NCBI GenBank assembly: GCA_902789795.1
Contig: CADAPM010000002.1
Coordinates: forward strand, 186,001-250,000
DNA from: an uncultured Eubacteriales bacterium
GTDB taxonomy: Bacteria > Bacillota > Clostridia > Christensenellales > Aristaeellaceae
Direction: 5' to 3'
DNA: 64,000 bases
The notes under the pieces: model-generated
What the model saw: the letters and a program-made list of their open reading frames with translations, nothing else
Database searches by the model: none
What the model was told of the DNA's origin: nothing
Translations under genes and position numbers: made by a program
Shown here: in pieces, positions 11,010 to 56,323 of the stretch
Layout of the letters: every line of letters starts with the position of its first letter
Numbering within the stretch: the first letter of the stretch is position 1

Positions 11010-11265
11010 ATAGCGCGTTGACGAAGTTACGTTCACGCTCCACCGCTTCCAGAGAGCCGGCATTTGGTGCAAGCCGGCAGCAGGCGGCCTGAACGGTCTC
11101 GCTTCCGAGCAGGGCATCTGAAACATGAGTAAGACGCCCCGGCACGCCCCGTTATCATGGCGAAGGATTCATTGGGATCCGTAGAGTGGTCCGCTTTCAT
11201 GGCGGGCAACTGGGGTGGTACCGCGGTTATTCCGTCCCCTGAGCACAGCTCAGAGGACGTTTTTT
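11010..11265 (+). promoter_or_regulatory. T-box riboswitch leader, probable leucine (CTC) specifier
   Basis: This is a classic T-box leader. A GACGAAGTTACG element (about 11030) opens stem I. AGAGAGCCGG...TTTGGTGCAAGCCGG (11051-11076) is the distal stem I region. The specifier segment CTC-G-CTTCCGAGC places CTC at 11098-11100, read as leucine. The T-box AACTGGGGTGGTACCGCGG (11208-11226) is the tRNA acceptor-binding bulge. The competing terminator is at 11234-11265. Uncharged tRNA-Leu should therefore switch on the two downstream genes. The T-box call is certain; the specifier is assigned by position pattern only. Confidence 0.93.
11234..11265 (+). terminator. T-box-controlled transcription terminator
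   Basis: GTCCCCTGAGC pairs with GCTCAGAGGAC (one mismatch) around loop ACA, followed by G and six U. The left arm overlaps the sequence needed for the antiterminator with the T-box motif. Confidence 0.88.
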
Positions 11266-11286
11266 ATTGCAGAAAGGACGGCAGCC

Positions 11287-12684
11287 ATGAACAAGATCAG
11301 CATCACGGACATCACGCTCCGGCGCGCGACCGAGACCGGAGCCCTGGGCTTCAAGGAGAAGCTGGAGATCGCCAAGTGCCTGGACCGCGTGAATATCAGC
11401 GCCATCGAGCTGGCCCCGCTGACCGAAAGCAAGGCGGACAGCATCTTTGTGAAGACCCTGGCCTCCCTGATCCGGAACACGACCCTGGCGCTGCCCGCCG
11501 GGCGCACGCCCGAGAGCGCCGAGCGCGCCTGGGAGGCCCTGAAGACCGCCGCCCGCGCCCGCCTGATCGTGGACGTGCCGGTATCCAGCGTGCAGATGGA
11601 GTACATCGCTCGCAAAAAGCCCGAGAAGATGCTCGAGGAGATCGACAGCCAGGTGCGCCTGTGCGCGTCCCTCTGCCCCGACGTGGAGTTCTGCGCCACC
11701 GACGCCAGCCGCGCGGACCCTGAATATCTGTACCAGGCGGTGGACACGGCCCTCAGGGCCGGCGCGGGCAGCGTGTGCCTGTGCGACACCGCCGGCGTCT
11801 TCCTGCCGGAGGAATACAAGCAGTTCCTGTGCGACCTGTATGAACACGTGCCGGCTCTTAAAGACGTGTTCGTGAAGGTGGTCTGCGACGATTCCGCGGG
11901 CCTCGCGGCGGCCTCCGCCGTGAACGCCGTCACTGTGGGCGCGGCGGGCGTCAAGACCTGCCTCATCGGCACCTCTGCCCCGCACCTGCGCACCATCTGC
12001 GGCATCTTGAGCCGCAAGGGCGACGCCCTGGGCCTCTACACCGCCGTCAAGACCACGGAGCTGGACCGCACGCTGCAGCGCATCAGCGGCTTCCTGGGCA
12101 AGCCGGACACCGGCACAGTGAGCGTCAGCTACCAGGACGACACCGTCACCTGGGACGCCACCGACTCCATCAGCGCCATCGCCGACGGCGTGCACAGCCT
12201 GGGCTATGACCTGAGCGAGGAGGAGCTCGCCAAGGTCTACGAGGAGTTCCTGCGCCTGGCCCGCAAGAAGGCCGTGAGCCGCAAGGAGCTGGACGCCATC
12301 GTGGCCGCCAGCGCCATGCAGGTGCCCGCCACCTACACGCTGGAAAGCTACGTCATCAACTCCGGCAATATCATCACCGCCACCGCCAGTTTGAAACTCA
12401 GCCACAATGGTACTTCCATTGAAGGCATCTCCGCCGGCGACGGCCCCATCGATGCGGCCTTCAAGGCCATGGAGACCGTGACGGGCCGGCACTTCGAGCT
12501 CGAGAGCTTCCTGATCGACGCCATCACCGAGGGCAAGGAGGCCATCGGCCGCGCCATCGTCAAGCTGCGCAGCGACGGCAGGCTCTATTCCGGCAGCGGC
12601 GTTTCCACCGACATCATCGGCGCTTCCATCCGCGCCTACCTGGGCGCCCTCAACAAGATCGTCTATGAGGAGAATGAAGTATGA
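11287..12684 (+). CDS. Degenerate 2-isopropylmalate synthase paralogue with intact LeuA regulatory domain
   Basis: This 465-residue protein has an HMGL/LeuA-type TIM barrel (about 1-280), a linker, and a LeuA dimer/allosteric domain (about 350-465). The regulatory domain keeps its motifs: ISAGDGPIDAAFKAME, and SGVSTDIIGASIRAYL before ALNK. The catalytic site does not. The TLRDGxQ motif reads TLRRATETG, so the metal-binding Asp is Arg13. The HxHDD metal site reads V198-V-C200-DD, so both histidines are gone. GIGERAGN is replaced by LIGTSAPHL. The family enzyme condenses acetyl-CoA with 2-ketoisovalerate using a divalent metal, so this copy is probably not a synthase and may sense leucine (inference). 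The start has GAAAGGACGG upstream. It lies behind the T-box and overlaps the next gene by ATGA. Confidence 0.88.
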   Translation: MNKISITDITLRRATETGALGFKEKLEIAKCLDRVNISAIELAPLTESKADSIFVKTLASLIRNTTLALPAGRTPESAERAWEALKTAARARLIVDVPVSSVQMEYIARKKPEKMLEEIDSQVRLCASLCPDVEFCATDASRADPEYLYQAVDTALRAGAGSVCLCDTAGVFLPEEYKQFLCDLYEHVPALKDVFVKVVCDDSAGLAAASAVNAVTVGAAGVKTCLIGTSAPHLRTICGILSRKGDALGLYTAVKTTELDRTLQRISGFLGKPDTGTVSVSYQDDTVTWDATDSISAIADGVHSLGYDLSEEELAKVYEEFLRLARKKAVSRKELDAIVAASAMQVPATYTLESYVINSGNIITATASLKLSHNGTSIEGISAGDGPIDAAFKAMETVTGRHFELESFLIDAITEGKEAIGRAIVKLRSDGRLYSGSGVSTDIIGASIRAYLGALNKIVYEENEV

Positions 12685-15188
12685 GGCTCAGTTTTTCGAC
12701 CAAGGGCTGGCACGACGCCTCCTGGGAGGACTTTTTGACCGCGGCTCAGGACCTGGGCTTTGAGGGCATCGAGATCCATAACCTCAACGCCGCCGCCATG
12801 CAGAAGAAAGGCGCGCCCGCCGATAAGCAAGCCTCCGCCGCGGTGTACCGCGCGCTCTACGACCGGCACCTCTCCGTGCCCTGCATCAACGTGGCCGGCG
12901 ACCTCTGCGACCGGGCCGGGCAGGAGTCCCTCTTTGAGGAGATCTCCGCCTGCATCGACGCGGCCAAGCGCCTGCACGCGCCTTTCGTGCGCCTGCACAC
13001 CGTGCGCACCGGGGAGAACTTTGACGAAGCCCTGGTCCGCGAAGCCCTGGCCTACGCGCTGCCGAAGGCCGAGCAGGCCGACGTGGTGCTTTTGATCGAG
13101 ACCATGGGCGCGTATGCCGATACCGCGCGCCTGCGCGAGCTCCTGGACGGCTACGCCGACGACCGGCTGGCCGCCCTCTGGGACTTCCATTTCCCCTATC
13201 GGATGCACGGCGAGACCGCGCAGGTGACGGTCACGAACCTGGGCGCGTACATCCGCCACGTGCACATCAAGGACTCCCTGGTCCAGGCTGACGGCGAGCT
13301 CAGCTATCAGCTGATCGGCGAGGGCGACCTGCCCGTGGATCCGCTGATGAAGGCCCTGGACTCGGTGGACTATGACGGCTTCGTCTCTCTCGAGTGGGAC
13401 CCCGCCTGGCTGCCGGAGCTGACCGACATGACGGTGATCTTCGCCCATTTCAGCAGCTTCATGTCCCGCTTCGGCCAGGAGGAGGAGAAGAAGTCCCTCT
13501 ACTACAACAAGCTGCACACGGGCAACTACGTCTGGCCCAAGGAAGCGCTGATCAACTGCACCTTCTCCCAGGTGCTGGACCGCATGGTCGAGGAGTTTCC
13601 GGACCAGTACGCCTTCAAGTACACGACCCTGGATTACACCCGCACCTACAGCCAGTTCCGCGACGACGTGGATGAGTGCGCCCGGGCGCTGATCTCCCTG
13701 GGTGTGCGCGCCGGGAGCAAGGTGGCTGTCTGGGCCACCAACATCCCGGCCTGGTACATCACCTTCTGGGCCACCACCAAGCTGGGCGCGGTACTGGTGA
13801 CGGTGAACACCGCTTACAAGATCCATGAGATCGAATACCTGCTCCGGCAGAGTGACACCCATACCCTGGTGATGATCGAGCGCAGCCAGGATTCCGACTA
13901 CGCCGCCAGCATCCGGGAGCTTTGCCCCGAGCTCGAGCATACGGCCCCGGGCGCGCAGCTGCACGCCAAGCGCCTGCCCTTCCTGCGCAACGTGGTCACC
14001 GTGGGCTTCAAGATGCCCGGCTGCATGACCTGGGAGCAGATGCTGACCCGTGCCAGTGCCGTGCCCGTGGAGCAGCTGCACCGCATGGCCGCCCGGGTGG
14101 ACATCCACGACGTGTGCAACATGCAGTATACCAGCGGCACCACCGGCTTCCCCAAGGGCGTCATGCTGACCCACCACGCGGTGGTCAACAACGGCAAGTG
14201 CATCGGCGACCGCATGGATCTCTCCACCGCCGACCGCATGATGATCCAGGTGCCCATGTTCCACTGCTTCGGCATGGTGCTGGCCATGACCGCCTCCATG
14301 ACCCATGGCGCGACCCTTTGCCCGCTGCCCTATTTCAGCGCGCGCAATGCCCTGGCCTGCATCAATCAGGAGCGCATTACCGCCTTCCACGGCGTGCCCA
14401 CCATGTTTATTGCCATGTTCAACCACCCGGACTACCGCAAGACGGATTTCAGCCACATGCGCACAGGCATCATGGCCGGCGCGGGCTGCCCGCCCGAACT
14501 CATGAAGCGCGCCGCGCGGCCCGACGAGATGAACATGCGCGGCATCGTGTCCGTCTACGGCGAGACCGAGTCCGCCCCCGGCGATACCATGAGCGAGCTG
14601 GACGACCCGCTGGACGAGCGCTGCGAGACCGTGGGCCGCGCCTTCCCGCACGTGGAGTGCAAGATCATCGACCCCGAGACCGGCGAGGACTGCCCGGACA
14701 ACGTGAACGGCGAGTTCGTGGCCCGGGGCTACAACCTGATGAAGGGCTATTACAAGATGCCCGAGGCCACCGCCGCCGCCATCGACAAGGACGGCTGGCT
14801 GCACACCGGCGACCTGGCCTGCCGCCTGCCCAACGGCACCTACAAGATCACCGGCCGCCTCAAGGACATGATCATCCGCGGCGGCGAGAACATCTACCCG
14901 AAAGAGATCGAGGAGTTCATCTACACCCATCCCGCCGTGCAGGACGTGCAGGTGATCGCCGTGCCGGACAAGCAGTACGGCGAGGAGATCTGCGCCTGCG
15001 TGATCCTGAAGGACGGCCAAACCCTCACCGAGGACGAGCTCAAAGACTACATGCGCAGCCACATGGCCCGCCACAAGGTCCCCCGCTACGTCTGGTTCAT
15101 GCCCGCCTTCCCCATGAACGCTGCGGGAAAGATACTCAAGTACAAGATGAGGGAGGAAGCGGCGGCGAGGTTCACACAAGAGCGATGA
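12681..15188 (+). CDS. Xylose-isomerase-like TIM barrel fused to AMP-dependent acyl-CoA synthetase
   Basis: This 835-residue protein has two enzymes. Residues 1-270 are a sugar-phosphate isomerase/epimerase-type (AP-endonuclease-2 superfamily) barrel with its metal ligands visible in LLIETMG, WDFHFP, HVHIKD and SLEWDP. Residues 290-835 are an ANL-family acid-CoA ligase: P-loop YTSGTTGFPKG from residue 483, VYGETES, WLHTGDLACR, GRLKDMIIRGGENIYPKEIE, and the C-terminal catalytic lysine K817 in NAAGKILKYK. It most resembles medium-chain or fatty acyl-CoA synthetases (FadD/FACS). The AUG overlaps the preceding stop (ATGA), so it is translated with the LeuA paralogue under T-box control. Both halves look catalytically intact. 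The substrates are unknown; the leucine link suggests a branched-chain acid (inference). Confidence 0.9.
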   Translation: MRLSFSTKGWHDASWEDFLTAAQDLGFEGIEIHNLNAAAMQKKGAPADKQASAAVYRALYDRHLSVPCINVAGDLCDRAGQESLFEEISACIDAAKRLHAPFVRLHTVRTGENFDEALVREALAYALPKAEQADVVLLIETMGAYADTARLRELLDGYADDRLAALWDFHFPYRMHGETAQVTVTNLGAYIRHVHIKDSLVQADGELSYQLIGEGDLPVDPLMKALDSVDYDGFVSLEWDPAWLPELTDMTVIFAHFSSFMSRFGQEEEKKSLYYNKLHTGNYVWPKEALINCTFSQVLDRMVEEFPDQYAFKYTTLDYTRTYSQFRDDVDECARALISLGVRAGSKVAVWATNIPAWYITFWATTKLGAVLVTVNTAYKIHEIEYLLRQSDTHTLVMIERSQDSDYAASIRELCPELEHTAPGAQLHAKRLPFLRNVVTVGFKMPGCMTWEQMLTRASAVPVEQLHRMAARVDIHDVCNMQYTSGTTGFPKGVMLTHHAVVNNGKCIGDRMDLSTADRMMIQVPMFHCFGMVLAMTASMTHGATLCPLPYFSARNALACINQERITAFHGVPTMFIAMFNHPDYRKTDFSHMRTGIMAGAGCPPELMKRAARPDEMNMRGIVSVYGETESAPGDTMSELDDPLDERCETVGRAFPHVECKIIDPETGEDCPDNVNGEFVARGYNLMKGYYKMPEATAAAIDKDGWLHTGDLACRLPNGTYKITGRLKDMIIRGGENIYPKEIEEFIYTHPAVQDVQVIAVPDKQYGEEICACVILKDGQTLTEDELKDYMRSHMARHKVPRYVWFMPAFPMNAAGKILKYKMREEAAARFTQER

Positions 15189-44130: not shown

Positions 44131-46515
44131 TCATCCGCGGTTCCGGAGTTCTTCCGGGGCCGCCATTTTCTTTGCCCGTCCGTACAAGAGCCACATGATG
44201 GCGAGACCGATCCCCATCAGCGCGCCCAGCCAGGCCCAGCAGCTGAGCGGCATGGTGCGCACCGTCAGGAAGAAGACCTTCCCGAGCCAATTTACCGCTG
44301 CCGCGAACGCCAGCGACACGCCCGTGAGCACGCAGGCCCGCAGGAGGTCCAGCGGCTTGGAAACGATGTAGAGCTCTATGAGGCCGATGATCCCGGCCAG
44401 TATCAGCGCCATGGAGGAGCAGTCCTCCGGCGCGACGCCTGCAAACTGCAAAGCCGAGGCTGCCGCTGCCGTCACCGCCACAGCGATGCCGCCCGGGGCC
44501 GCCAGCGTCAGCACGCTGCGCAGGAAGCTGCCGCCAACCCGCTCCTTATTGGGCTGCAGCGCCAGGAAGAAGCCGGGGATGCCGATAGTAAGCGAGCTGA
44601 TCAAAGTCAGCTGGATCGGCTGGAAGGGGTAGCGGATCGGCAGGATCAGGGTGAACAGGCTCAGCAGCACCGAGTAGATGGTCTTGACCAGAAACAAGGA
44701 GGAGGTGCGCCGGATATTGCCGATGACCCGGCGTCCCTCTGCCACGGCCTCCGGCAGCACCGCAAAGTCGCCGTCCAGCAGGGTCAGCTGCGCCACATGC
44801 CGGGCGGCGCTGGCCTCGGAGCCGATGGCGATGGAGCAGTCCGCCGCCTTCAGGGCGGGGATGTCGTTGACGCCGTCGCCGGTCATGCCCACGGAATGTC
44901 CGGCCTCCTTGAGGGCCTGCACCAGAAGCCGCTTCTGCTGCGGGGTGACGCGGCCGAACACGGTGTATTCCAGGGCAGCCTTCCTGATCTCCGCCTCCGT
45001 TTTCAGGTCGTGCAGGTCAACGAGCCTGTCCGCGTGCGGGACCCCTGCCTGGGCGGCGATCCGCGTGACGGTCTCGGGGTCGTCGCCGCTGATGATCTTG
45101 ATCTCAACTTTCTGAGAAGCGAAGTATTGGAGCGTCTCCCGGGCGTTGTCCCGGATCTCGTCCCGCAGGCAGAGGAAGCCCATCACCCGGCCCGCCTCGG
45201 GACATTCCGCGCCCTTGATCGGCCCCGCCGCCTCGCACAGCGCGAGCACGCGCAGGCCCTTGGCGGCCTGGGCCCGGATCAGCTCCTGATAGGGTCCCAT
45301 GTCCGGCAGTACGAAGCTCGGCGCACCCAGGATCAGCGTCAGTCCGTCCTCGAAGCCGGCGGCGGATTTCTTGCGCTGGGAGGAGAAGGGCAGCAGCACC
45401 GCCTCCTCGATCCGCTTGGCCGGCGCGAAGGCGCGGATGGCCCGAAGGGTGGGCGATTCATCGTCGAAGGCCCCGGCATACCGGCTCAGGGCAGCAGTGA
45501 TCTCGGCCTCGTCGGCGTCCACCGGGATGATCCCTTCCACATTCATATTGCCGGTAGTCAGGGTGCCTGTCTTGTCGAGGCACAGGGTATCCACCCGTGC
45601 CAAGGTTTCGATGCCGTACATCTCGGAGCACAGCATCTGCCGCCGGCCGAGCCTGACCACGCCCACTGCCAGCGCGGTGGAGCACAGCAGGATCAGTCCC
45701 TCGGGGATCATACCCACCAGCGCGGCCACCACCCGCGGCACCGCCTGGTTCACCGGCATTTTCAGGATAAAGTACTGCTTGGCCATCAGCAGCATGCCCA
45801 GGGGCACCAGGACCATGGTGATCAGGTGCACCAGCTTGTTCAGGTCCGTCATCAGGGCGGACTTGGGCCGCTTGATGCGCTTGGCGGCCTGGGTCAGCTG
45901 ATTCAGGTAGGAGCTGTCGCCCACCTTCACCAGCTGGGCCACCAGGCGTCCTTCCGTGACATAGCTGCCGGAGAGCAGCCAGTCGTTTTCCTGCTTGGAG
46001 ACCGCGTCGCTCTCGCCGGTCAGCAGGGACTCATCCGCGGCGCCGACGCCGTCCAGCACCACCGCATCCGCGGGGATCTGATCTCCGGCGCGCAGGATGA
46101 CGACATCGCCTTCCACCAGCTCTTCCGGGGGCAGCTTTACCTCCCGCCCGTCCCTGACTACGCGGCACTGCACCGCGTGCAGCAGCTCGAGCCTGCGCAC
46201 CGTGTTGCGGGCCCGGAGCTCCTGCACCGTGCCGATGACGGTGTTGCAAATGACCACGCCCAGGAACAGCATGTTCCGGTAGGAACCCACCAGCACCAGA
46301 CAAAGACCCAGAAAGAGGTTCAGCAGGTTAAAAAAGGTCAAGATATTTTCAGCCAGGATGCGGGCGACCGATTTCCCCTGGTCACGGGTCGTCCTGTTCC
46401 CTCGGCCTTCCTTCGCGAGCTTTTCCGCCTCGGCCGTGCTCAGCCCTTCCGGGGCGGTGCGCCGGAAGTCCTTCGGCAGCTCGGACGGTAAACTCAGCTT
46501 CTCCTGATCGTTCAT
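44131..46515 (-). CDS. Cation-transporting P-type ATPase, CtpE-like
   Basis: This 794-residue P-type ATPase has actuator loop LLTGESDAVSK, phosphorylation motif CLDKTGTLTTGN, and hinge MTGDGVNDIPALKAADCSIAIGS. TM4 reads GMIPEGLILLCS; the PEGL element is typical of the CtpE group (calcium uptake in mycobacteria) rather than of heavy-metal CPx pumps. No N-terminal metal-binding domain is present. The C-terminal half has six helices. The start at 46515 is chosen from GGGAG 6 nt upstream. Ca2+ as substrate is inferred. The promoter is at 46567-46595. Confidence 0.9.
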   Translation of the reverse strand: MNDQEKLSLPSELPKDFRRTAPEGLSTAEAEKLAKEGRGNRTTRDQGKSVARILAENILTFFNLLNLFLGLCLVLVGSYRNMLFLGVVICNTVIGTVQELRARNTVRRLELLHAVQCRVVRDGREVKLPPEELVEGDVVILRAGDQIPADAVVLDGVGAADESLLTGESDAVSKQENDWLLSGSYVTEGRLVAQLVKVGDSSYLNQLTQAAKRIKRPKSALMTDLNKLVHLITMVLVPLGMLLMAKQYFILKMPVNQAVPRVVAALVGMIPEGLILLCSTALAVGVVRLGRRQMLCSEMYGIETLARVDTLCLDKTGTLTTGNMNVEGIIPVDADEAEITAALSRYAGAFDDESPTLRAIRAFAPAKRIEEAVLLPFSSQRKKSAAGFEDGLTLILGAPSFVLPDMGPYQELIRAQAAKGLRVLALCEAAGPIKGAECPEAGRVMGFLCLRDEIRDNARETLQYFASQKVEIKIISGDDPETVTRIAAQAGVPHADRLVDLHDLKTEAEIRKAALEYTVFGRVTPQQKRLLVQALKEAGHSVGMTGDGVNDIPALKAADCSIAIGSEASAARHVAQLTLLDGDFAVLPEAVAEGRRVIGNIRRTSSLFLVKTIYSVLLSLFTLILPIRYPFQPIQLTLISSLTIGIPGFFLALQPNKERVGGSFLRSVLTLAAPGGIAVAVTAAAASALQFAGVAPEDCSSMALILAGIIGLIELYIVSKPLDLLRACVLTGVSLAFAAAVNWLGKVFFLTVRTMPLSCWAWLGALMGIGLAIMWLLYGRAKKMAAPEELRNRG

Positions 46516-46566
46516 GGCATTCTCCCATTCGGTTGCACTGATCAAAACCGACGTAACGATGGTCAC

Positions 46567-46656: not shown

Positions 46657-47649
46657 TTGCGAAAGGCCAGAATCCTGCTGGGGATGCTCCTGACGGCGCT
46701 CCTGCTGTGCTCCTGCGCGTTCGCGCTGGAAAGCTTTGAAAATGCCGCCTGCGCGGCGGAGCTCCTGCTGTCCGGCCGCGGCCTGACCAGCACCGTCACC
46801 CTGCGGTTTGAAAACCGCACGGATAAGCCCGTGAAGCTGGTCATTCGCGACGTGGCCTTCAACGGCGAATGCACCGGGACCACGTTGGAGCAAACCGCGG
46901 AACCGGGCCAGATAGTGCGGTCCTTCTCCTTCCGCCGCAGCACACTGACACCCGTCACGGTCTGTGACCTGGGCTTCGCGGTATTCAGTGCGGAGGATAA
47001 TCTACTGGCCGAGGAGACCCTCAGTCTCTATCCCTATGGCGAGGCCGCCGCAAAGCGGCCGGTGCTGACGGACTATCCGGATGCGGCGGTAGCTCTGGAC
47101 AGCAAGGACGCGAGCCTGCTGTTTCTTTCCCCCACCCAGGCCCAGGACGGCAAACGCGTCCTGTGGCTGTACAACAAGACGGATGGGCTGCTCCGCCTCA
47201 GGATCGACCGGATCCTGGCCGACGGCCAATTGACGGAGCTGAGCCTCGTTTTGCAGGTCCTTCCGCACACCGGGCAGTTTGCGGAGCTCACCTTGCCGGA
47301 TCCGCTGCCCGACAGTATCTCCGTGACACTGACCGGCTATCCCTCCGGGCAGGAGCTGCCCCTTTTCCGGGAGAACTATGAGTACCGGCTGAACGCCCCG
47401 GTCTCCGTGCCCACGATGGTCCCCGCCGTGACGCCGAGGCCCCAGATCGGCACCGTGACCATCCGCAAGTCCGGGCCGGTGAACGTGCGGGACGGCGACT
47501 CCACCAGCGACAATAAGATCGGCTCCGCCAAGGCGGGACAGACCTATCCGTGCTTCGGCATTTCCCCCAACGGCTGGTATCTGATCCGCCTCGACGACGG
47601 GACCGAAGGCTACGTGATCAACACCCTCACAACACTCAAGAAAGAATAA
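46657..47649 (+). CDS. Exported protein with C-terminal SH3 domain
   Basis: This 330-residue exported protein has a signal peptide LLGMLLTALLLCSCAFA followed by LE, so either AFA cleavage or a variant lipobox at LCSC is possible. A mainly beta N-terminal half (about 30-245) of unknown family follows. After a Pro/Thr linker (TMVPAVTPRPQ) comes a bacterial SH3 domain (about 265-328: KSGPVNVRDGDSTSDNKIGS, GWYLIRLDDGTEGYV). The start is UUG at 46657 with GGAGGTGA about 7 nt upstream. Its stop lies 12 nt before the A-ACP-AOS synthase gene, so the two share a transcript. Confidence 0.82.
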   Translation: MRKARILLGMLLTALLLCSCAFALESFENAACAAELLLSGRGLTSTVTLRFENRTDKPVKLVIRDVAFNGECTGTTLEQTAEPGQIVRSFSFRRSTLTPVTVCDLGFAVFSAEDNLLAEETLSLYPYGEAAAKRPVLTDYPDAAVALDSKDASLLFLSPTQAQDGKRVLWLYNKTDGLLRLRIDRILADGQLTELSLVLQVLPHTGQFAELTLPDPLPDSISVTLTGYPSGQELPLFRENYEYRLNAPVSVPTMVPAVTPRPQIGTVTIRKSGPVNVRDGDSTSDNKIGSAKAGQTYPCFGISPNGWYLIRLDDGTEGYVINTLTTLKKE

Positions 47650-47661
47650 AGCGAGGTTACC

Positions 47662-50600
47662 ATGGACTTCATCGAACGACGCAGCTCAGCGCTCAGAGCA
47701 GAACCCACCCTGAAGCGGCTCTGGGAGATCCTGTTCGAGGACGAAAACGCCCTGCAGGCGCTGTACCTGGATACCGCCGATACTCGGCAGTCTGTGACCT
47801 GGGGCGAATGCCGGCGCAAGGCGCTGGCCGCGGCCCAGGCGCTTGAGCGCGACAACGGCAGCGGGCACTGGATCGCCCTCTCGCTGGACACCTGTCCCGA
47901 ATGGCTGACGCTGTTTTTCGGGATCATCCTGTCCGGCAACAACGCGCTGCTGCTGGACCCCAACGCGACGGACGAGCTGACGGAATACCTGATGCGCCAG
48001 GCGGGAGCCACCGCGCTCATCACGGGCCGGGAACGCAAGGCGCTGTATACTGTTCGCCAGTACACAGCGGAAGCGCTGTGCTCCCTGAAAGCGGAAGGTG
48101 TCTATCAGCCGGAGCATTTCGGCACCAAGGTCGCGCTGTGCACCTCGGGCACCACCCAGACCAGCCGCGTCTTCGTGTACGATGAATATGCGCTGTGCCA
48201 GCAGCTGTTAAACTCCGAATTGTTGCACCGGCTGAACCGGCGCATCATCGACGGCGAGAATCCGACCCGCAACCTGGTCTTCCTGCCCTGCCACCACGTA
48301 TTCGGCTTCCTGGTCTGCATGCTGTGGATGAGCTTTATCGGCGGCGAGAACGTCTACCTGCGCGACCGCAGCCCCCAGTCCATCCTGCACACGGCCCAGG
48401 TCTTTGAGGTCACGATGCTCATCACCGTGCCGCTGCTGCTCAACAACCTGTGCGGTGCACTCCGGCGCAAAATGGGCGCCCTCGATGAAAAGACGCGTCA
48501 GATGTTCCTGCAGGGCCTGAACGCCTCCGAAGCGCAGCAGAAGCTCGATCCCGAGCAGGGCCTCGCCCTCGCATCCGGCAAGCTGTTCAGCGATACGCTC
48601 AAGCAGCTCCTGGGCGATAAGGTCCGCTGCGTGATCATCGGCGGCAGCTTTGCGCCGGAAGAAAACCTGCGCCTGTTCAACCAGCTGGGATATTATACCG
48701 TAGTCGGTTTTGGCATGACCGAAACGGGCGTCACCTCCGTGGAAAGCGGCATGGACTATGACGTGCGCCTGTCCGGCTCCGTTGGCAAGCCCTTTGACAG
48801 CGCCGAATACCGCGTGCTGGATCCCGGCGCCAACGGCATCGGCGAGCTCGCCATCCGCGGCGGCACGCTGCACACCGCGCGCCTCGAAGAAGGCCAGGAG
48901 CTCGCGCCGGAACTGGATCAGGACGGCTGGTTCCATACCGGCGACCTGGTCAGGATCGGCGAGGACGGGCGGCTGTATATCATCGGCCGCAGCAAGGACC
49001 TGATCATCAACGAATCCGGCGAAAACGTATACCCGGACGAACTGGAAGCCGCCTTCGCGCCGCCGCCCTATGTGGACGAGTTCAGCGTGGTGGGCATCCG
49101 CCGCCAGCCGAACGAGAAGTATGAAGATATCACCCTGATCGCCCATTGCCAGCCTGGAGCGGCTCCGGCGGACTACAGGGACTTGATTGAGACCGTCAGC
49201 GACCTGAACGACCGCCTGCCAGTGATGAAGCAGGTCACGCGCCTGGTCATCTCCGAAGCGCCGCTGCCCCTCTCCGCCAGTATGAAGGTGCAGCGCTTCC
49301 GCCTGCGCCGCGCGGTCACGGACGGCGAAGCCGGATTCACGGACATCCCCTTGAACCGCAATACTCCCGCCCCCGTCCAGAAGCCCGCGGCGCCCGCGCA
49401 GTTCGCGGACGACCGGGAGATCATGGACTGGGTGCGATCCCTGTACGCCGAGGTGCTGAACATCCCCGCCGATACCATCAGCGACGACGCGCGCTTCAGC
49501 GAGGATCTGCAGGGCGACAGCCTGGGCCTGGTCTCCCTGGCGGTCAAGGCGGAAGAGACCTTCCACGTGGTGATCGAGCCGCGGGACTACGGCGAATGCA
49601 CCACGGTTCGCGGCGCGGCGCGGCTGATCCAGCGCCTGAAAAACGGCGACCGGGAGGAAGAGCACAAAAAGCCCGACCACGTCCAGCCCATTACACGCTT
49701 TGAGGACAGTCCGGAATACCAGGCCTTCGCCGAGCGCCAGCGCAAGCTGATGCAGGACGAAGCGGACAACCCCTATTTCGTCTGCCACGAATCCCCGCTC
49801 ACCGACCGCAGCCTGATGGACGGACAGTGGGTGCTGAACTTCGGCTCCTACAACTACGCCGGCATGTCCGGCCGGAAGGAGACGATGGAGGCCGCCAAGG
49901 AAGCCATCGACAAGTACGGCACCTCCGCCTCCGGCAGCCGCCTGCTGGCCGGCGAAAAGGAGCTGCACGGACAGCTGGAGCGCGCCATCGCGGAATGGAA
50001 GCACGCCGAGAGCGCCCTGGTGCTGGTGGGCGGCCACTCCACCAACGTGACGATCGTGGGCAATTTCTGCGGCAAGAACGACCTGATCCTGTACGACGCC
50101 ATCGACCACAACTCCATCATGGAAGGCCTGCGCATGTCCGACGCGGAATCCCTGCCCTTCCCCCACAACGACGTGCGCGCCCTGGAGGCATTGCTGAAAC
50201 TGAACCGCCACGAATACGAGAAGGTGCTGATCGTCGTGGAGGGCGTCTACTCCATGGACGGCGATATCGCACCCATCCCGGAATACGTGCGCCTGAAGAA
50301 GGAGTACGGCTGCTTCCTGATGGTGGACGAGGCGCACTCTGCCTGCGTGATCGGCGAGACAGGCGGCGGCGTGGATGAATACTTCCACCTGGCGTCGGAC
50401 GATATCGACATCAAGATGGGCACCCTGTCCAAGGGCCTGGGCACCTGCGGCGGCTACCTGGCGGGCAAGAAGACGCTGATCGACTACCTGCGCTACAACC
50501 TGCCCGGCTTCGTATTTTCCGTGGGCATGTCCCCGCCCCTGGCGGCGGCCACGCTGCGCGCGGTGCAGCTGCTGAAGGAGGATCCCTCCATCATGGCGGA

Positions 50601-50904
50601 CCTCCGGCGAAATATCGCCTGCTTCGCGGAAGAAGCCCAGGCCCGGGGCTTCGATATCGGCCTGGCGGGACGCACCGCCATCATCCCCATCATGATCGGC
50701 AAGGACGAGGACGCCTTCCTGCTCAGCAATATGATGCGCAAAAAGGGCGTGTTTGTGCCCCCCGCTGTGTTCCCGGCCGTCCCCCGTGGGAAAGCCCGCC
50801 TGCGCTTCGGTGTGACCTCCTGCCATAAGCCTGAGCAGATCCGGGAAGCCCTGGATAAGCTTGTGGAGTGCGTAAAAGAAGCCGGCATCACGCTGCCGAA
50901 ATGA
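47662..50904 (+). CDS. Trimodular adenylation-ACP-alpha-oxoamine synthase (putative aminoketone lipid/natural-product synthase)
   Basis: This 1080-residue protein carries three modules. First is an ANL adenylation domain (1-550): P-loop TSGTTQTSR from T161 (the usual GxPKG half is altered), GFGMTETG, WFHTGDLVRIG, GRSKDLIINESGENVYPDELE, and catalytic K542 in SASMKVQR. Second is an acyl carrier protein (about 575-650) with phosphopantetheine Ser620 in GDSLGLVSL. Third is a fold-type I alpha-oxoamine synthase (about 680-1075) like serine palmitoyltransferase, KBL and BioF: ASGSRLLAGE, HNSIMEGLRMS, VVEGVYSMDGD, DEAHSACVIG, and PLP lysine K924 in GTLSKGLGT. The expected reaction is activation of a carboxylic acid, loading on the ACP, and decarboxylative condensation with an amino acid to an alpha-aminoketone. 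Substrates are unknown. GAGG lies before the AUG. Confidence 0.9.
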   Translation: MDFIERRSSALRAEPTLKRLWEILFEDENALQALYLDTADTRQSVTWGECRRKALAAAQALERDNGSGHWIALSLDTCPEWLTLFFGIILSGNNALLLDPNATDELTEYLMRQAGATALITGRERKALYTVRQYTAEALCSLKAEGVYQPEHFGTKVALCTSGTTQTSRVFVYDEYALCQQLLNSELLHRLNRRIIDGENPTRNLVFLPCHHVFGFLVCMLWMSFIGGENVYLRDRSPQSILHTAQVFEVTMLITVPLLLNNLCGALRRKMGALDEKTRQMFLQGLNASEAQQKLDPEQGLALASGKLFSDTLKQLLGDKVRCVIIGGSFAPEENLRLFNQLGYYTVVGFGMTETGVTSVESGMDYDVRLSGSVGKPFDSAEYRVLDPGANGIGELAIRGGTLHTARLEEGQELAPELDQDGWFHTGDLVRIGEDGRLYIIGRSKDLIINESGENVYPDELEAAFAPPPYVDEFSVVGIRRQPNEKYEDITLIAHCQPGAAPADYRDLIETVSDLNDRLPVMKQVTRLVISEAPLPLSASMKVQRFRLRRAVTDGEAGFTDIPLNRNTPAPVQKPAAPAQFADDREIMDWVRSLYAEVLNIPADTISDDARFSEDLQGDSLGLVSLAVKAEETFHVVIEPRDYGECTTVRGAARLIQRLKNGDREEEHKKPDHVQPITRFEDSPEYQAFAERQRKLMQDEADNPYFVCHESPLTDRSLMDGQWVLNFGSYNYAGMSGRKETMEAAKEAIDKYGTSASGSRLLAGEKELHGQLERAIAEWKHAESALVLVGGHSTNVTIVGNFCGKNDLILYDAIDHNSIMEGLRMSDAESLPFPHNDVRALEALLKLNRHEYEKVLIVVEGVYSMDGDIAPIPEYVRLKKEYGCFLMVDEAHSACVIGETGGGVDEYFHLASDDIDIKMGTLSKGLGTCGGYLAGKKTLIDYLRYNLPGFVFSVGMSPPLAAATLRAVQLLKEDPSIMADLRRNIACFAEEAQARGFDIGLAGRTAIIPIMIGKDEDAFLLSNMMRKKGVFVPPAVFPAVPRGKARLRFGVTSCHKPEQIREALDKLVECVKEAGITLPK

Positions 50905-50915
50905 CAGCTATTGTT

Positions 50916-50941
50916 CCCCTTCCCAACTGAACGGGAAGGGG
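50916..50941 (+). terminator. Terminator after the A-ACP-AOS gene
   Basis: Perfect 9-bp stem CCCCTTCCC / GGGAAGGGG with an 8-nt loop, followed by AUUAUUUC, 12 nt past the stop. Confidence 0.75.
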
Positions 50942-51130
50942 ATTATTTCATCATCATTGGCAGCATTACATTGGACTGGTATGGAAATGGAATAAGTGAT
51001 ACTGTCAGAGTATTTGACATCTCTATAATAAACGGATTCGCTGTCGTTTATGATGATAACATAACATTTACATATACGCGGCTGCTTTAGCGCGCGATCC
51101 CGCGCAGCATCATCGGTCAAACCACGGTTT
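50942..51130. other. AT-rich intergenic stretch, no gene seen
   Basis: About 190 bp, much richer in A+T than its surroundings, lie between the synthase terminator and the pfkB promoter. A TATAAT occurs near 51024 without a good -35. No coding frame with a ribosome site is present. Confidence 0.5.
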
Positions 51131-51201: not shown

Positions 51202-52143
51202 GTGATCACCACAGTCACCATGAATCCTTGTATTGACCGTTCCGTGCATTTGGGCGCCTTCCGGAAGGGAGGCACCAACCGCGTGCTGCGCAGCCGCACC
51301 GATATCGGCGGCAAGGGCATCAACGTGAGCGTACAGCTGCGCTCTTTCCGGCAGGAGACGCGGGCGCTGTGCCTGGACCCCATGGACAGCGGCACCTACC
51401 TGACGGATACGCTGGCGACCCTGGGCGTCCCGGTGATCATGGTGCCCGTCAACGGCCGCCTGCGCGAAAACCTGAAGATCTACGACGACGAAGCCGGCGA
51501 CATGACCGAAGTCAACGAAGCCGGGAATCCGGTGGACTTCAGCTCCTATAAACGCTTTATGCAGCGCTTTGAATCCGTGCTCGCCAATACCCGGATCCTG
51601 GTGCTCAGCGGCAGCATCCCGCCCGGCATCCCGACGGATATCTACCGGCAGATGATCGAAAAAGCGAAAGCGGCGGGCGTCCTGACCGTGCTGGATGCGG
51701 ACGGCGAGCCGCTGCGCCTGGGCCTGGAGGCCGGTCCCGACATGATCAAGCCCAATCGCAATGAAATGGAGCGCCTGACCGGGCATGAGATCCCGGACCT
51801 GGACACCGCCTGCGCGGAGGCCATGACGCTGGTGGACCGCGGCGTCAAAAATGTGTGCCTTTCCCTGGGCGCGGACGGAGCCATCCTTGCCAATCGGCAA
51901 GGGATATGGTATTCTGAGGGTGTGCCCATCAAGATCCGGGGCAAGCAGGGCGCCGGGGACGCGCTGGTGGCCGGCTTGTGCATGGGCAAGCTCAAGGGCA
52001 TGGACTACGGCGAGATGCTGCGCACCGGCATGGTCATGGCCCAGGGCTCCCTCACCCGCGAAGGCACTCTCTTGTGCACCCAGCGCATCTATGATGAGCT
52101 GAGGCCCAAGATGCCGGTCGTCCAGTACCGCATCTTCGCGTAA
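51202..52143 (+). CDS. PfkB-family sugar kinase (1-phosphofructokinase / tagatose-6-phosphate kinase type)
   Basis: This 313-residue ribokinase-fold kinase starts VTMNPCIDRSV, typical of FruK/LacC, with GGKGINVS as substrate motif and SGSIPPGIP. The ATP/anion-hole site is KQGAGDALVAGLC with the catalytic Asp. The start is GUG at 51202. The family phosphorylates fructose 1-phosphate or tagatose 6-phosphate; without a linked fruA/fruR or lac gene the substrate is open. A secreted glycosidase follows 25 nt later in the same direction. Confidence 0.88.
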   Translation: MITTVTMNPCIDRSVHLGAFRKGGTNRVLRSRTDIGGKGINVSVQLRSFRQETRALCLDPMDSGTYLTDTLATLGVPVIMVPVNGRLRENLKIYDDEAGDMTEVNEAGNPVDFSSYKRFMQRFESVLANTRILVLSGSIPPGIPTDIYRQMIEKAKAAGVLTVLDADGEPLRLGLEAGPDMIKPNRNEMERLTGHEIPDLDTACAEAMTLVDRGVKNVCLSLGADGAILANRQGIWYSEGVPIKIRGKQGAGDALVAGLCMGKLKGMDYGEMLRTGMVMAQGSLTREGTLLCTQRIYDELRPKMPVVQYRIFA

Positions 52144-54020: not shown

Positions 54021-55208
54021 TCAGGTTCCCCAGCGGAAAATGAAACGCGGTGTCTCAGTTTCCTGCGGGATCTCCTCCGCTGTTGTCTCCTCAGGCGTCT
54101 CGGGCGGCTGTTCCGGTTCCGGGAGCTCGCCGTTGACCGCCTCTTCCGCCTCATCTGACATCTTCATTTCAGCGAAGCGCCGCACTTCCATTTCCTTCTC
54201 AAAATCGTCCTCGCGCCACATGCTCATGTACAGCGCGCCGTCCTGGGCGGAGGCGTCCACCCGGACCGGGAAATCGTAATCGTTACGGTAGATCAGGTTC
54301 AGAGCGCTGTTCCCCACCGCTGCATCCACGCCGTGCGGCAGGTAGGAAGCGCCGTTATCCCCGTGGGCGCGGCGTTTGAGCACCGTGATGCCCGGGAGCT
54401 GCAGCAGCACATTGTACAGGGTCGAGGAGACCTGGCAGGTGCCGCCGCCGTAATTGAGCGCCATCTTGCCTTCGGTCAGGATCGGAGCGACAAAGTAGCC
54501 GTTTTTCAGCGTATAGGGGCCGATCTGCGCATTGAAGTCCAGCTTGTCTCCCGGCTGGAGCACGATGTTGGAGAGCTTCTCGCACGCGACCTTGATGTTC
54601 ATCATCCTGCCCTGGTTGGCTTCCGTATCGTCCGTTTTGTAATAGGAGGTATAGACCGCCAGCGGGGCCTTCAGCGTCCCTTCCTCCGGCGCGGCCTTGA
54701 CCGCCGTGATGTCCCGCAGGAGCGACGTGTTCAGATAACCGTACTGCCGCTTAAAGATGACCTTGGCCCAGCCGTTCTCAAAGCCGATGATGCCCAGCCG
54801 TGCGCCGTCGTGCAGCGTGATCAGGAGCTTCGAGCGCGCGTCCGGCTCAGCCATGACCGGCGCGTCGCCCTGCGCACAGGCCATATAGCCGAAGGGGACG
54901 ACGCCGTAGGGCGGCGTATTCACCGGGTCGACCCTGCGCACGTTCTTGACCCTGGAGCGGTAGATCCAGCCCTCGAATTCCCCTGAGCGAACATATAGGA
55001 AATTGGGCTCGACCGTCAGGATCTCCACCCCGCGGTTCTTCTTGAGGTATGTCACCGTCTCGCCCCAGTCGCCGGGTTCCGTCATCATCCTGCTCTCGCC
55101 CACCGTCACGGCGCGGTACAGCGCCGGCTGCCTTTCGGCGGAAGCGGCGGCGCACAGGCACATCAAAACAAGGGCTGCCGCAACAGCCCTTATGATCAGA
55201 GTTTTCAT
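54021..55208 (-). CDS. Exported VanW-family protein (second of a tandem pair)
   Basis: This 395-residue protein has a signal peptide (LIIRAVAAALVLMCLCAAASA). Two SH3-like segments follow (about 25-100 and 105-185, the second with DPVNTPPYGV and KRQYGYLNTSLL), then a VanW domain (about 200-330): LQPGDKLDFNAQIGPYT, LNYGGGTCQVSSTLYNVLL, HGDNGASYLPHGVDA, NDYDFPVRV. A Pro/Glu-rich tail ends the protein. The VanW function is unknown; members cluster with cell-wall genes. The start at 55208 is 4 nt after the stop of the upstream paralogue; no strong ribosome site is seen, which suggests coupling. Confidence 0.85.
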   Translation of the reverse strand: MKTLIIRAVAAALVLMCLCAAASAERQPALYRAVTVGESRMMTEPGDWGETVTYLKKNRGVEILTVEPNFLYVRSGEFEGWIYRSRVKNVRRVDPVNTPPYGVVPFGYMACAQGDAPVMAEPDARSKLLITLHDGARLGIIGFENGWAKVIFKRQYGYLNTSLLRDITAVKAAPEEGTLKAPLAVYTSYYKTDDTEANQGRMMNIKVACEKLSNIVLQPGDKLDFNAQIGPYTLKNGYFVAPILTEGKMALNYGGGTCQVSSTLYNVLLQLPGITVLKRRAHGDNGASYLPHGVDAAVGNSALNLIYRNDYDFPVRVDASAQDGALYMSMWREDDFEKEMEVRRFAEMKMSDEAEEAVNGELPEPEQPPETPEETTAEEIPQETETPRFIFRWGT

Positions 55209-55212
55209 CGTC

Positions 55213-56214
55213 TTATACATCCGCGCGGTAGATGGCCATATACAGGCACAGGTCGTGGCAGCTGGCTTCGATCCGGATCGGGAAGTCATAGCTGTTGCGC
55301 ATGCGGAAGTTCAGTGCGCCGCTGGAAGCGTCCACGCCATGGGGCAGATAGGCCGCGCCGCTGGCGCCGTGGGGATGGCGCTCCACGATCGTGATGCCCG
55401 GCAGCTGCAGCACCGTATTGTACAGCGTGGAGCTGATCTGGCAGGAACCGCCGCCGTAGCCCAGCTTGGTCACGCCGTCAGTCAGCACCGGCGCGGGATA
55501 GTAACCGTTGCCCTTGGTGAAGGGGCCCACCGTCTCGTTGAAGAGCAGCACCTCTCCCGGCTCCATGACGCGCATCAGGCGCTGGCAGGCCAGTTCCAGG
55601 TTTTTGATGCGGTCGGGGTTATCACTATAGAAAGAGCAGAACACGGAGATGGGCGTGTCCGCGTCGCCGAGCTCCACGCTGGGCGCGACGGGTGTGATCT
55701 CCTTCAGAAGCCGGGTGTCGATATAGCCGTATTCCCGCTTGTGGACCAGCTTGGCATAGCCGTTTTCCACGCCCAGGAGCGCCACCTTGGCGCCGGCCGT
55801 CAGCACGTTCAGGATCTCCGCGTCCGGTTCCGGCTGGAACAGCACCGGCGTTTCCTGGGTGATTTCAGCGTAATAGGTATAGACCTCGACGCCGTAGGGC
55901 GGCGTGTTGACCGGATCCACCGGGGTCACCTGGTCGACGCGGTTGCGGAGCACATAGCCCAGCTTGTCGCCCAGCTTGATCTCGATCCAGTTGGGATAGA
56001 CCGCGGTCACCTGCAGCCTTTTTCCGGCGCGGTAAGTGTCCAGGATCTTGCTCAGGCGGTCCATCTGGGCATAGACCGAAGTGGTGGACTTAGGATAATT
56101 CATGGTGATGATGGCGTTATAGAGCACCGGTTTATCCGCCGCGGCCAGCGCCGTGACAGGCACCAGGCCCGCCAGGAGCGTCACGATCATCAGGAGTAAA
56201 AAGAGTTTGCGCAT
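55213..56214 (-). CDS. Exported VanW-family protein (first of a tandem pair)
   Basis: This 333-residue protein has the same order as its downstream neighbour: signal peptide (KLFLLLMIVTLLAGLVPVTALA), two SH3-like segments, the linking motif DPVNTPPYGV, KREYGYIDTRLL and a VanW domain (LFNETVGPFTKGNGYYPAPV, LGYGGGSCQISSTLYNTVL, HPHGASGAAYLPHGVDA). It lacks the acidic tail. The close match of both domain layout and short motifs indicates tandem duplication. GGAGG lies 6 nt before the AUG at 56214. The promoter is at 56294-56323. Confidence 0.88.
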   Translation of the reverse strand: MRKLFLLLMIVTLLAGLVPVTALAAADKPVLYNAIITMNYPKSTTSVYAQMDRLSKILDTYRAGKRLQVTAVYPNWIEIKLGDKLGYVLRNRVDQVTPVDPVNTPPYGVEVYTYYAEITQETPVLFQPEPDAEILNVLTAGAKVALLGVENGYAKLVHKREYGYIDTRLLKEITPVAPSVELGDADTPISVFCSFYSDNPDRIKNLELACQRLMRVMEPGEVLLFNETVGPFTKGNGYYPAPVLTDGVTKLGYGGGSCQISSTLYNTVLQLPGITIVERHPHGASGAAYLPHGVDASSGALNFRMRNSYDFPIRIEASCHDLCLYMAIYRADV

Positions 56215-56293
56215 GCATTGCCTCCGTGTATCATTCTGTATCATTGATTGCTGATCTGCATGTTCAATAAGCCGGGGCATCCCCGACAACGGC

Positions 56294-56323
56294 ATTATAG
56301 CACATTCCCCCGCTCAAAAGCAA
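56294..56323 (-). promoter_or_regulatory. Promoter of the tandem vanW operon
   Basis: Minus-strand TTGCTT, 18 bp, TATAAT, with a leader of about 75 nt containing a GGGGATGCCCC hairpin. Confidence 0.7.

Follow-up and report, generated by a model that had tools for sequence, protein, structure and literature searches.

In the window, by which we mean the whole 64,000-nucleotide stretch of DNA analysed, one intact open reading frame starting at ATG encodes an adenylation (A) domain, an acyl carrier domain (ACP) and an alpha-oxoamine synthase (AOS) domain, in this order (Table 1). The evidence leans towards an enzyme that loads itself and carries out the condensation leading to a sphingoid-type lipid base; a classical short-chain reductase (SDR) would later reduce its 3-keto product. 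The three domains, their intact catalytic residues, and the linkage and co-occurrence of the gene with this reductase are established here.

Domains of the synthase and local surroundings

The range 46657..50904 contains two genes, an ORF with an SH3_3 domain followed by the synthase ORF, whose ATG is preceded by GAGG at 47653-47656. Three Pfam families matched the synthase in sequence, all above their gathering scores (AMP-binding, residues 36-402; PP-binding, 589-656; Aminotran_1_2, 724-1067), which is the layout of the A-CP-AOS multidomain proteins (PMC3870968). Comparison with the related locus L036 gave 110, 92 and 353 differences at the three codon positions over 1079 codons, as expected for a gene under coding constraint. 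The residues K542, S620 and K924 lie at the positions given in the earlier note and are invariant in an alignment of 38 sequences (A1, window included); together with the Pfam matches, this bears out its claim that acid activation, carrier and PLP-dependent condensation are united in one chain. From family knowledge, we take K542 to be the A10-type catalytic lysine.

Table 1. Features of the synthase region (positions in the window)
Feature	Position	Strand	Remarks and basis
Secreted SH3_3 protein gene	46657..47649	+	330 aa, TTG start; SH3_3 by Pfam
A-ACP-AOS synthase gene	47662..50904	+	1080 aa; ORF, Pfam, residue and codon-position comparison
Adenylation (acyl-activating) domain	47767..49326	+	about residues 36-555; K542 present; Pfam, alignment
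P-loop TSGTTQTSR (161-169)	48142..48168	+	form conserved across the family
Codon of K542, presumed A10-type catalytic lysine	49285..49287	+	alignment
Acyl carrier domain	49417..49641	+	about residues 586-660; Pfam, alignment
Codon of S620, phosphopantetheine site (GDSL)	49519..49521	+	alignment
Alpha-oxoamine synthase domain	49729..50895	+	about residues 690-1078; Pfam, NCBIfam, structure and sequence comparison
Codon of Y730, at the SmSPT Asn52 position	49849..49851	+	Tyr in 69/69 relatives
Codon of K924, PLP lysine	50431..50433	+	alignment with relatives
Terminator-like stem-loop directly 3' of the synthase	50915-50942	+	pattern match only

The P-loop reads as the earlier note had it, but the atypical acid or lowered turnover that it saw suggested by this motif found no support, given that the whole family shares this P-loop form and the catalytic residues. 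Among 51 full-length fused proteins (window included), TSG[TS]T is present in 50, the last residue is Arg or Lys in 48 and Asn in 3, and the Gly that seems to be missing falls at a variable position. A weak or dead A domain was rejected on the same family-wide form. The nearest solved sequences of the A domain are MenE, followed by FadD5 and enzymes of the malonyl-CoA-ligase type. It is not an orthologue of E. coli AasR, to which it is 38.6% identical over 70 aa; since this similarity is short, the loading module was probably recruited independently. Conservation is lower in the A domain than in the AOS domain, with median identities to the window of 41% and 70%, respectively. In an 835-aa protein encoded elsewhere in the window (12681-15188, plus strand), a fatty-acid CoA ligase (PRK12583-like, 672 bits versus a cut-off of 832) comes after some 290 residues of unknown type. 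Just upstream of it lies a LeuA-like ORF (11215-12684), which matched 2-isopropylmalate synthase models well below cut-off.

The SH3 gene ends 12 nt upstream of the synthase, as previously reported, and its product matched SH3_3 with 32.4 bits (Pfam cut-off 27) and has a signal-peptide-like N-terminus, judged by eye. It is probably the first gene of a two-gene operon with the synthase. The local unit was limited to these two genes because the upstream P-type ATPase gene (E1-E2 ATPase and HAD hydrolase; 44131-46566, minus strand) is divergent from the pair, and the stem-loop and a PfkB-type hexose kinase (51202-52143) follow downstream; with 3 in the region versus 3.7 in shuffles, terminator-like sites show no enrichment. 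The statement in the earlier note that no reductase, transferase or transporter sits next to the synthase holds for the direct flanks, but the ATPase gene is located just past the SH3 gene. A long ORF devoid of Pfam matches overlaps the ATPase gene on the plus strand, and two adjacent VanW-domain proteins that both also contain SH3_3 are encoded at 54021-56295 (minus strand).

The AOS fold and the adjacent SH3 gene could together point to a secreted, CqsA-like aminoketone that acts as a signal and is linked to the secreted SH3 protein. We regard this as very unlikely: the AOS domain scored 160.1 bits against the CqsA-type model NF005526 (cut-off 428), and the recurrent partner of the gene is a reductase. 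Among 71 loci compared, moreover, the window, L036 and L037 are the only three at which the SH3 family adjoins the synthase, so the SH3 protein was rejected as a conserved partner. Of the sphingolipid-type or CqsA-like logic that had been proposed for the enzyme, the likeness to sphingolipid synthesis stood and the likeness to CqsA proved weak.

Affinity of the AOS domain

By sequence, the best solved relatives of the AOS domain are the serine palmitoyltransferases (SPT) 3a2b and 8guh. A Foldseek search with the AlphaFold2 model of the synthase also returned 3a2b first, followed by the Claisen-condensing AOS 7poa and 8s1y, with SulA (7u7h) at rank 48; this moderate model (mean pLDDT 78.9, pTM 0.51) was too weak to support claims on the pocket. 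The scores against the SPT, BioF, Kbl and CqsA models all remained below cut-off. The three SPT models gave 328.9 bits versus 640 (NF047600), 284.5 versus 500 (NF047599) and 224.9 versus 670 (NF047603), the Kbl (glycine C-acetyltransferase) model NF005394 gave 313.3 versus 460, and the top match, above every SPT model, was bioF (TIGR00858, 346.8 bits versus 426.45). In pairwise comparison, E. coli Kbl (32.3% identity, 208 bits) was slightly nearer than E. coli BL21 SPT (30.6%, 186 bits).

The bioF score raises the question of a biotin-pathway enzyme, a BioW-BioF analogue that would join pimelate and alanine, and natural BioWF fusions exist. The one from Corynebacterium amycolatum likewise combines acid activation and an AOS in one chain and gives aminoketone products, but it is a di-domain pimeloyl-CoA synthetase plus BioF of the biotin pathway (PMC9544090). 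Such a role is the least probable of those considered here and was rejected on the sub-cut-off bioF score and on the absence of a biotin synthase (bioB) match in the own genome, which is 88% complete; the control search was positive in 13/14 genomes, 7 of them over cut-off. A reductase partner does not fit this pathway either.

The residues of the AOS superfamily are all present, namely the PLP lysine K924, the stacking His H816, the Asp/His pair D889 and H892 and the substrate Arg R1048, and are the same in 69/69 relatives. Positions were mapped onto SmSPT (Lys244 numbering). S759, at SmSPT S81, is kept in all 69 relatives, whereas E. coli Kbl has Val there. The position of SmSPT Ala274 and SulA Lys281 is Val954, again Val in 69/69 relatives, and the SulA hallmark is thus absent.

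The Tyr and Val near the PLP site, in place of Asn52 and Ala274 of SmSPT, could mean that the same chemistry proceeds with serine replaced by glycine or alanine, and yields an amino alcohol of the 1-deoxy or desoxymethyl type in place of a true sphingoid base. Alanine and glycine are non-cognate substrates that Spt can use (PMC10191378), and the CaBioWF fusion takes Ala, Gly and Ser (PMC9544090). Against this reading, a Tyr at the Asn position is reported in some SPTs (PMC9304779), and Ser is conserved at the S81 position. We therefore consider glycine or alanine an unlikely choice, although one to be kept in mind.

A condensation with cysteate, as performed by SulA for sulfonolipids, was rejected on the Val at the position of Lys281, the residue described as the SulA hallmark (PMC9304779), and appears very improbable. 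SulA does use acyl-ACP according to the same source, and the sulfonolipid pathway includes a reductase step, with kcr homologues in Firmicutes and Firmicutes_A (PMC11211663). A gene for a PLP enzyme resembling D-cysteine desulfhydrase or D-cysteate sulfo-lyase, below model cut-offs, also lies upstream of the fused gene at L065 (8611-9642) and L089 (8777-9817), but this cysteate-linked neighbour is confined to these two related loci. It may be a sign that a different amino acid is used in the branch of these two distant relatives.

In a tree of the AOS domain (74 rows; L058, L034 and the 15 loci missed by ORF calling are omitted), 68 fused and short rows, all except that of Heimdallarchaeum, form a group of their own with support 100/99. 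This group has its own residue signature and a long branch, and stands apart from two SPTs (SmSPT, E. coli SPT), Kbl and two references labelled BioF; its nearest reference is unsure because the reference branches are long. Fused and stand-alone AOS are intermixed, which requires at least four changes. As the outlying rows of L060, Treponema and L059/L069 have fused genes, the simpler reading of this sequence tree would be that the A-ACP module was repeatedly lost or split. The Heimdallarchaeum protein outside the main clade (L097, 10004-11209) is an archaeal stand-alone AOS, 43.7% identical.

Distribution and a likely reductase partner

The synthase matched 105 of 200 genomes of the same family at E<=1e-100, own genome included; among the 104 others, 67 carry the fused type or pieces thereof and 37 a stand-alone AOS. 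With the A-ACP part alone as query, 78/200 family genomes matched at E<=1e-30. Only G022 among the 37 stand-alone AOS genomes was included in them; there, A-ACP lies beside an SDR on one contig and the AOS on another. The gene is rare elsewhere in the class, since a class-wide draw of 391 genomes matched the own genome only (E<=1e-120). In public genomes, the best 80 of 181 matches correspond to 79 loci, part of which resemble the query in the A domain alone. Fused genes among the matches listed occur on Bacteroidales-labelled contigs (L048, L050, L053, L056), in Treponema (L057, L062) and Clostridium rhizosphaerae (L054), on Mageeibacillus-labelled contigs (L065, L085) and on a deltaproteobacterial contig (L060); at L082 and L090 the similarity spans ACP to AOS only. 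The genome mining for the A-ACP-AOS order advised in the earlier note recovered the fused type or pieces of it in 67 other family genomes, and fused genes in scattered other taxa.

Within six genes of 71 AOS loci (80 anchors from ORF calling, minus 9 duplicates), the commonest neighbour family consists of classical SDRs some 270 aa long, found at 19 loci, and at 10 further loci a neighbour cluster was read as an antisense ORF of the SDR. The next recurrent clusters lie at varying distances (cluster 5 at 9 loci, cluster 3 at 7), and no third partner was found among the annotated neighbours, a set that does not include these two clusters. In this 71-locus count, the SDR is near 28/51 fused and 2/20 short genes. 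A tblastn recount independent of gene calling gave 85 distinct loci, 15 loci having been missed in the ORF-called set, likely owing to longer antisense ORFs or cut genes. An SDR then lay within about 1.6 kb of 34/63 fused and 3/22 short genes, or 30/52 and 2/19 where both flanks are present. Within the family, it lies at most 300 nt from the gene in 39/67 fused-type genomes and in 0/37 short ones, with two more fused cases at 458-459 nt.

In 20 measured pairs (L025 and L041 being duplicates), the two genes are on the same strand with the SDR upstream in 15 and downstream in 4, at gaps of -76 to 27 nt, the negative values hinging on the called starts; in the remaining pair, L062, they are divergent and 70 nt apart. 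The downstream or divergent SDRs (L057, L062, L069, L091, L092) come from Treponema, an Oscillospiraceae-labelled contig, Tissierellia and one more Clostridiales contig. Because they fall outside the clade of family SDRs in a quick tree (forks 82-100), the sequences suggest more than one origin of the link between SDR and synthase.

The own genome carries an orthologue of this SDR on the same contig, about 204 kb from the synthase (C2:28394-29203), and in the six other genomes of the genus that have the gene, the SDR is on another contig. The own SDR groups with 15 gene-adjacent SDRs (SH-aLRT 100) in a quick tree run without bootstrap, which gave long-branch warnings for other own-genome SDRs and omits L074, L025, L095, L120 and L124, the last two for want of a usable ORF. 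The earlier statement that no reductase sits next to the synthase accordingly holds for the locus alone, as a KdsR-like SDR adjoins the gene in many relatives and is present in the own genome.

With the own SDR as query, 105/200 family genomes matched at E<=1e-55. Among the 199 other family genomes, 92 have both AOS and SDR, 12 AOS only, 12 SDR only and 83 neither (odds ratio 53, Fisher p 2.7e-29, kinship among genomes being ignored). As the genomes are related and some are incomplete, this p-value overstates the independent evidence. The SDR is present at this threshold in 64/67 fused and 28/37 stand-alone AOS genomes, and in 12/95 genomes devoid of the AOS; it is missing in 3 and 9 genomes of the first two classes (in this count, 'fused' takes in partial matches and 'short' takes in pieces, as in G130 and G142). 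Three of the 12 SDR-only genomes (G114, G145, G169) probably hold cut fused genes, because an A-domain fragment adjoins their SDR.

Among NCBIfam models, the SDRs scanned matched 3-ketodihydrosphingosine reductase (KdsR, NF049977) best. The own SDR reached 199 bits (cut-off 400), the gene-adjacent SDRs of L047, L062 and L091 194-229 bits, and proteins in three of the four Bacteroidales-labelled genomes and in C. rhizosphaerae 301-305 bits, with 304 bits for the SDR of C. rhizosphaerae strain YIM B02515. Since sub-cut-off matches (E<=1e-40) occur in 3/14 control genomes as well as in 8/10 genomes of relatives, and none of these 10 passes the cut-off, the model is unspecific at this level, and a function as 3-ketosphinganine reductase is a lead rather than an assignment. 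Reductases of this sort in Clostridia are not new in themselves, because kcr homologues, for the sulfonolipid reductase, were reported in 14.4% of Firmicutes and 12.3% of Firmicutes_A genomes (PMC11211663). A second KdsR-like SDR of the own genome, encoded on contig C46 (L127:2107-2898), scored 225 bits with NF049977 and shares 40-44% identity with the AOS-adjacent SDRs of Treponema, L069, L091 and L092.

Proposed reaction and known systems

According to the reading favoured above, a self-loading synthase of a sphingoid-type base, the A domain would convert a free, probably long-chain fatty acid and ATP to an acyl-AMP, and the acyl group would pass from the adenylate to the phosphopantetheine arm at S620. 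The PLP domain would form an external aldimine with an amino acid, most likely serine, and its condensation with the acyl-ACP would release CO2 and a 3-keto long-chain amine. The KdsR-like SDR, acting in trans, would reduce this product to an amino alcohol, and a later N-acylation may follow. That the acid is long-chain we infer from the type of ligase and the presence of a reductase partner. Genomes with a stand-alone AOS, 28/37 of which keep the SDR, would draw on another acyl thioester. The description of the enzyme as self-contained hence applies to the condensation and not to the steps beyond it.

In favour of this scheme we counted the domain order, the invariant residues, the SPTs as best solved relatives, the SPT residues kept, the Tyr at the Asn position as in some SPTs, the linkage and co-occurrence with the SDR, KdsR as its best model, the grouping of the own SDR with gene-adjacent ones, the presence of AcpS in the own genome, and the precedent of split AasR, AcpR and SPT in Rhodobacteria (PMC9386255). 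Against it we counted that SPT cut-offs were not reached, with bioF scoring higher, Kbl slightly nearer and the AOS clade set off by its signature and long branch; that the SDR is below the cut-off of an unspecific KdsR model, and is missing in 9/37 and 3/67 AOS genomes and found alone in 12/95; that the A domain is no AasR orthologue; and that a search run without a positive control gave no YghO-type ceramide synthase match in the own genome.

More tentatively, and with less confidence than for the enzyme itself, we suggest that this family of gut Clostridia (some labelled Christensenella) and, more sporadically, gut Bacteroidales, Treponema and an environmental Clostridium might make sphingoid-type lipids with a KdsR-like reductase and a single-protein synthase whose AOS domain belongs to a clade not described before. 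If so, sphingoid bases would be supplied by Gram-positive gut bacteria, which would build them from free fatty acids. About half of the sampled genomes in one gut family (105/200) would carry the condensing enzyme for such lipids, in most of them in the form that uses free fatty acids directly. The single-chain synthase is a simple target as a biocatalyst, and its gene a marker by which to trace the origin of lipids in samples from rumen and hindgut.

The A-CP-AOS layout is not new, because it was listed in 2013 (Milano et al.) in other phyla and with no product. The A-CP-PLP2 (AOS) proteins of that list, Microscilla marina A1ZVW4 and Blastopirellula marina A3ZWL3, have their product given as unknown (PMC3870968, Table 2). 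They share domain order and AOS type with the synthase described here, differ in phylum, and have no reductase link named in the available part of the source; they are likened here by published description. In Rhodobacteria, the tripartite AasR-AcpR-SPT system (Caulobacter CC_1165/1163/1162; E. coli BL21 ECD_02851/02853/02854) follows the same logic, in that an adenylating enzyme activates the acid, a dedicated carrier is loaded and an AOS condenses it with serine (PMC9386255). It comprises three genes instead of one chain and an epimerase-type reductase gene where a classical SDR is found here, and the text of that article contains no mention of fusion, fused, Firmicutes or Clostridi. Beyond the SPT similarity already given, the AasR likeness is limited to the 70 aa noted for the A domain.

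Two further systems, as far as their available descriptions go, share single features. SgaAB of Pseudomonas fluorescens MYb115 makes sphinganines through an AOS with its own acyl-chain partner, but a polyketide synthase supplies the chain and the AOS is on a separate gene (PMC12134224). Bacteroides pairs an SPT (BT_0870) with a reductase of the classical SDR type, the 3-ketosphinganine reductase BT_0972, but the two are unclustered and no fused loading module is mentioned (PMC9278070). Within the open-licence PMC literature, we found no paper on a clostridial A-ACP-AOS fusion, in line with the earlier note, which knew of no assigned product for the arrangement in Clostridia; nor were the AOS clade, its clostridial spread or the reductase link found in print there. 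A carrier-AOS fusion with no A domain is encoded in Planctomycetes (L098, 9935-11527), as an ACP-AOS protein of 530 aa that is 33% identical.
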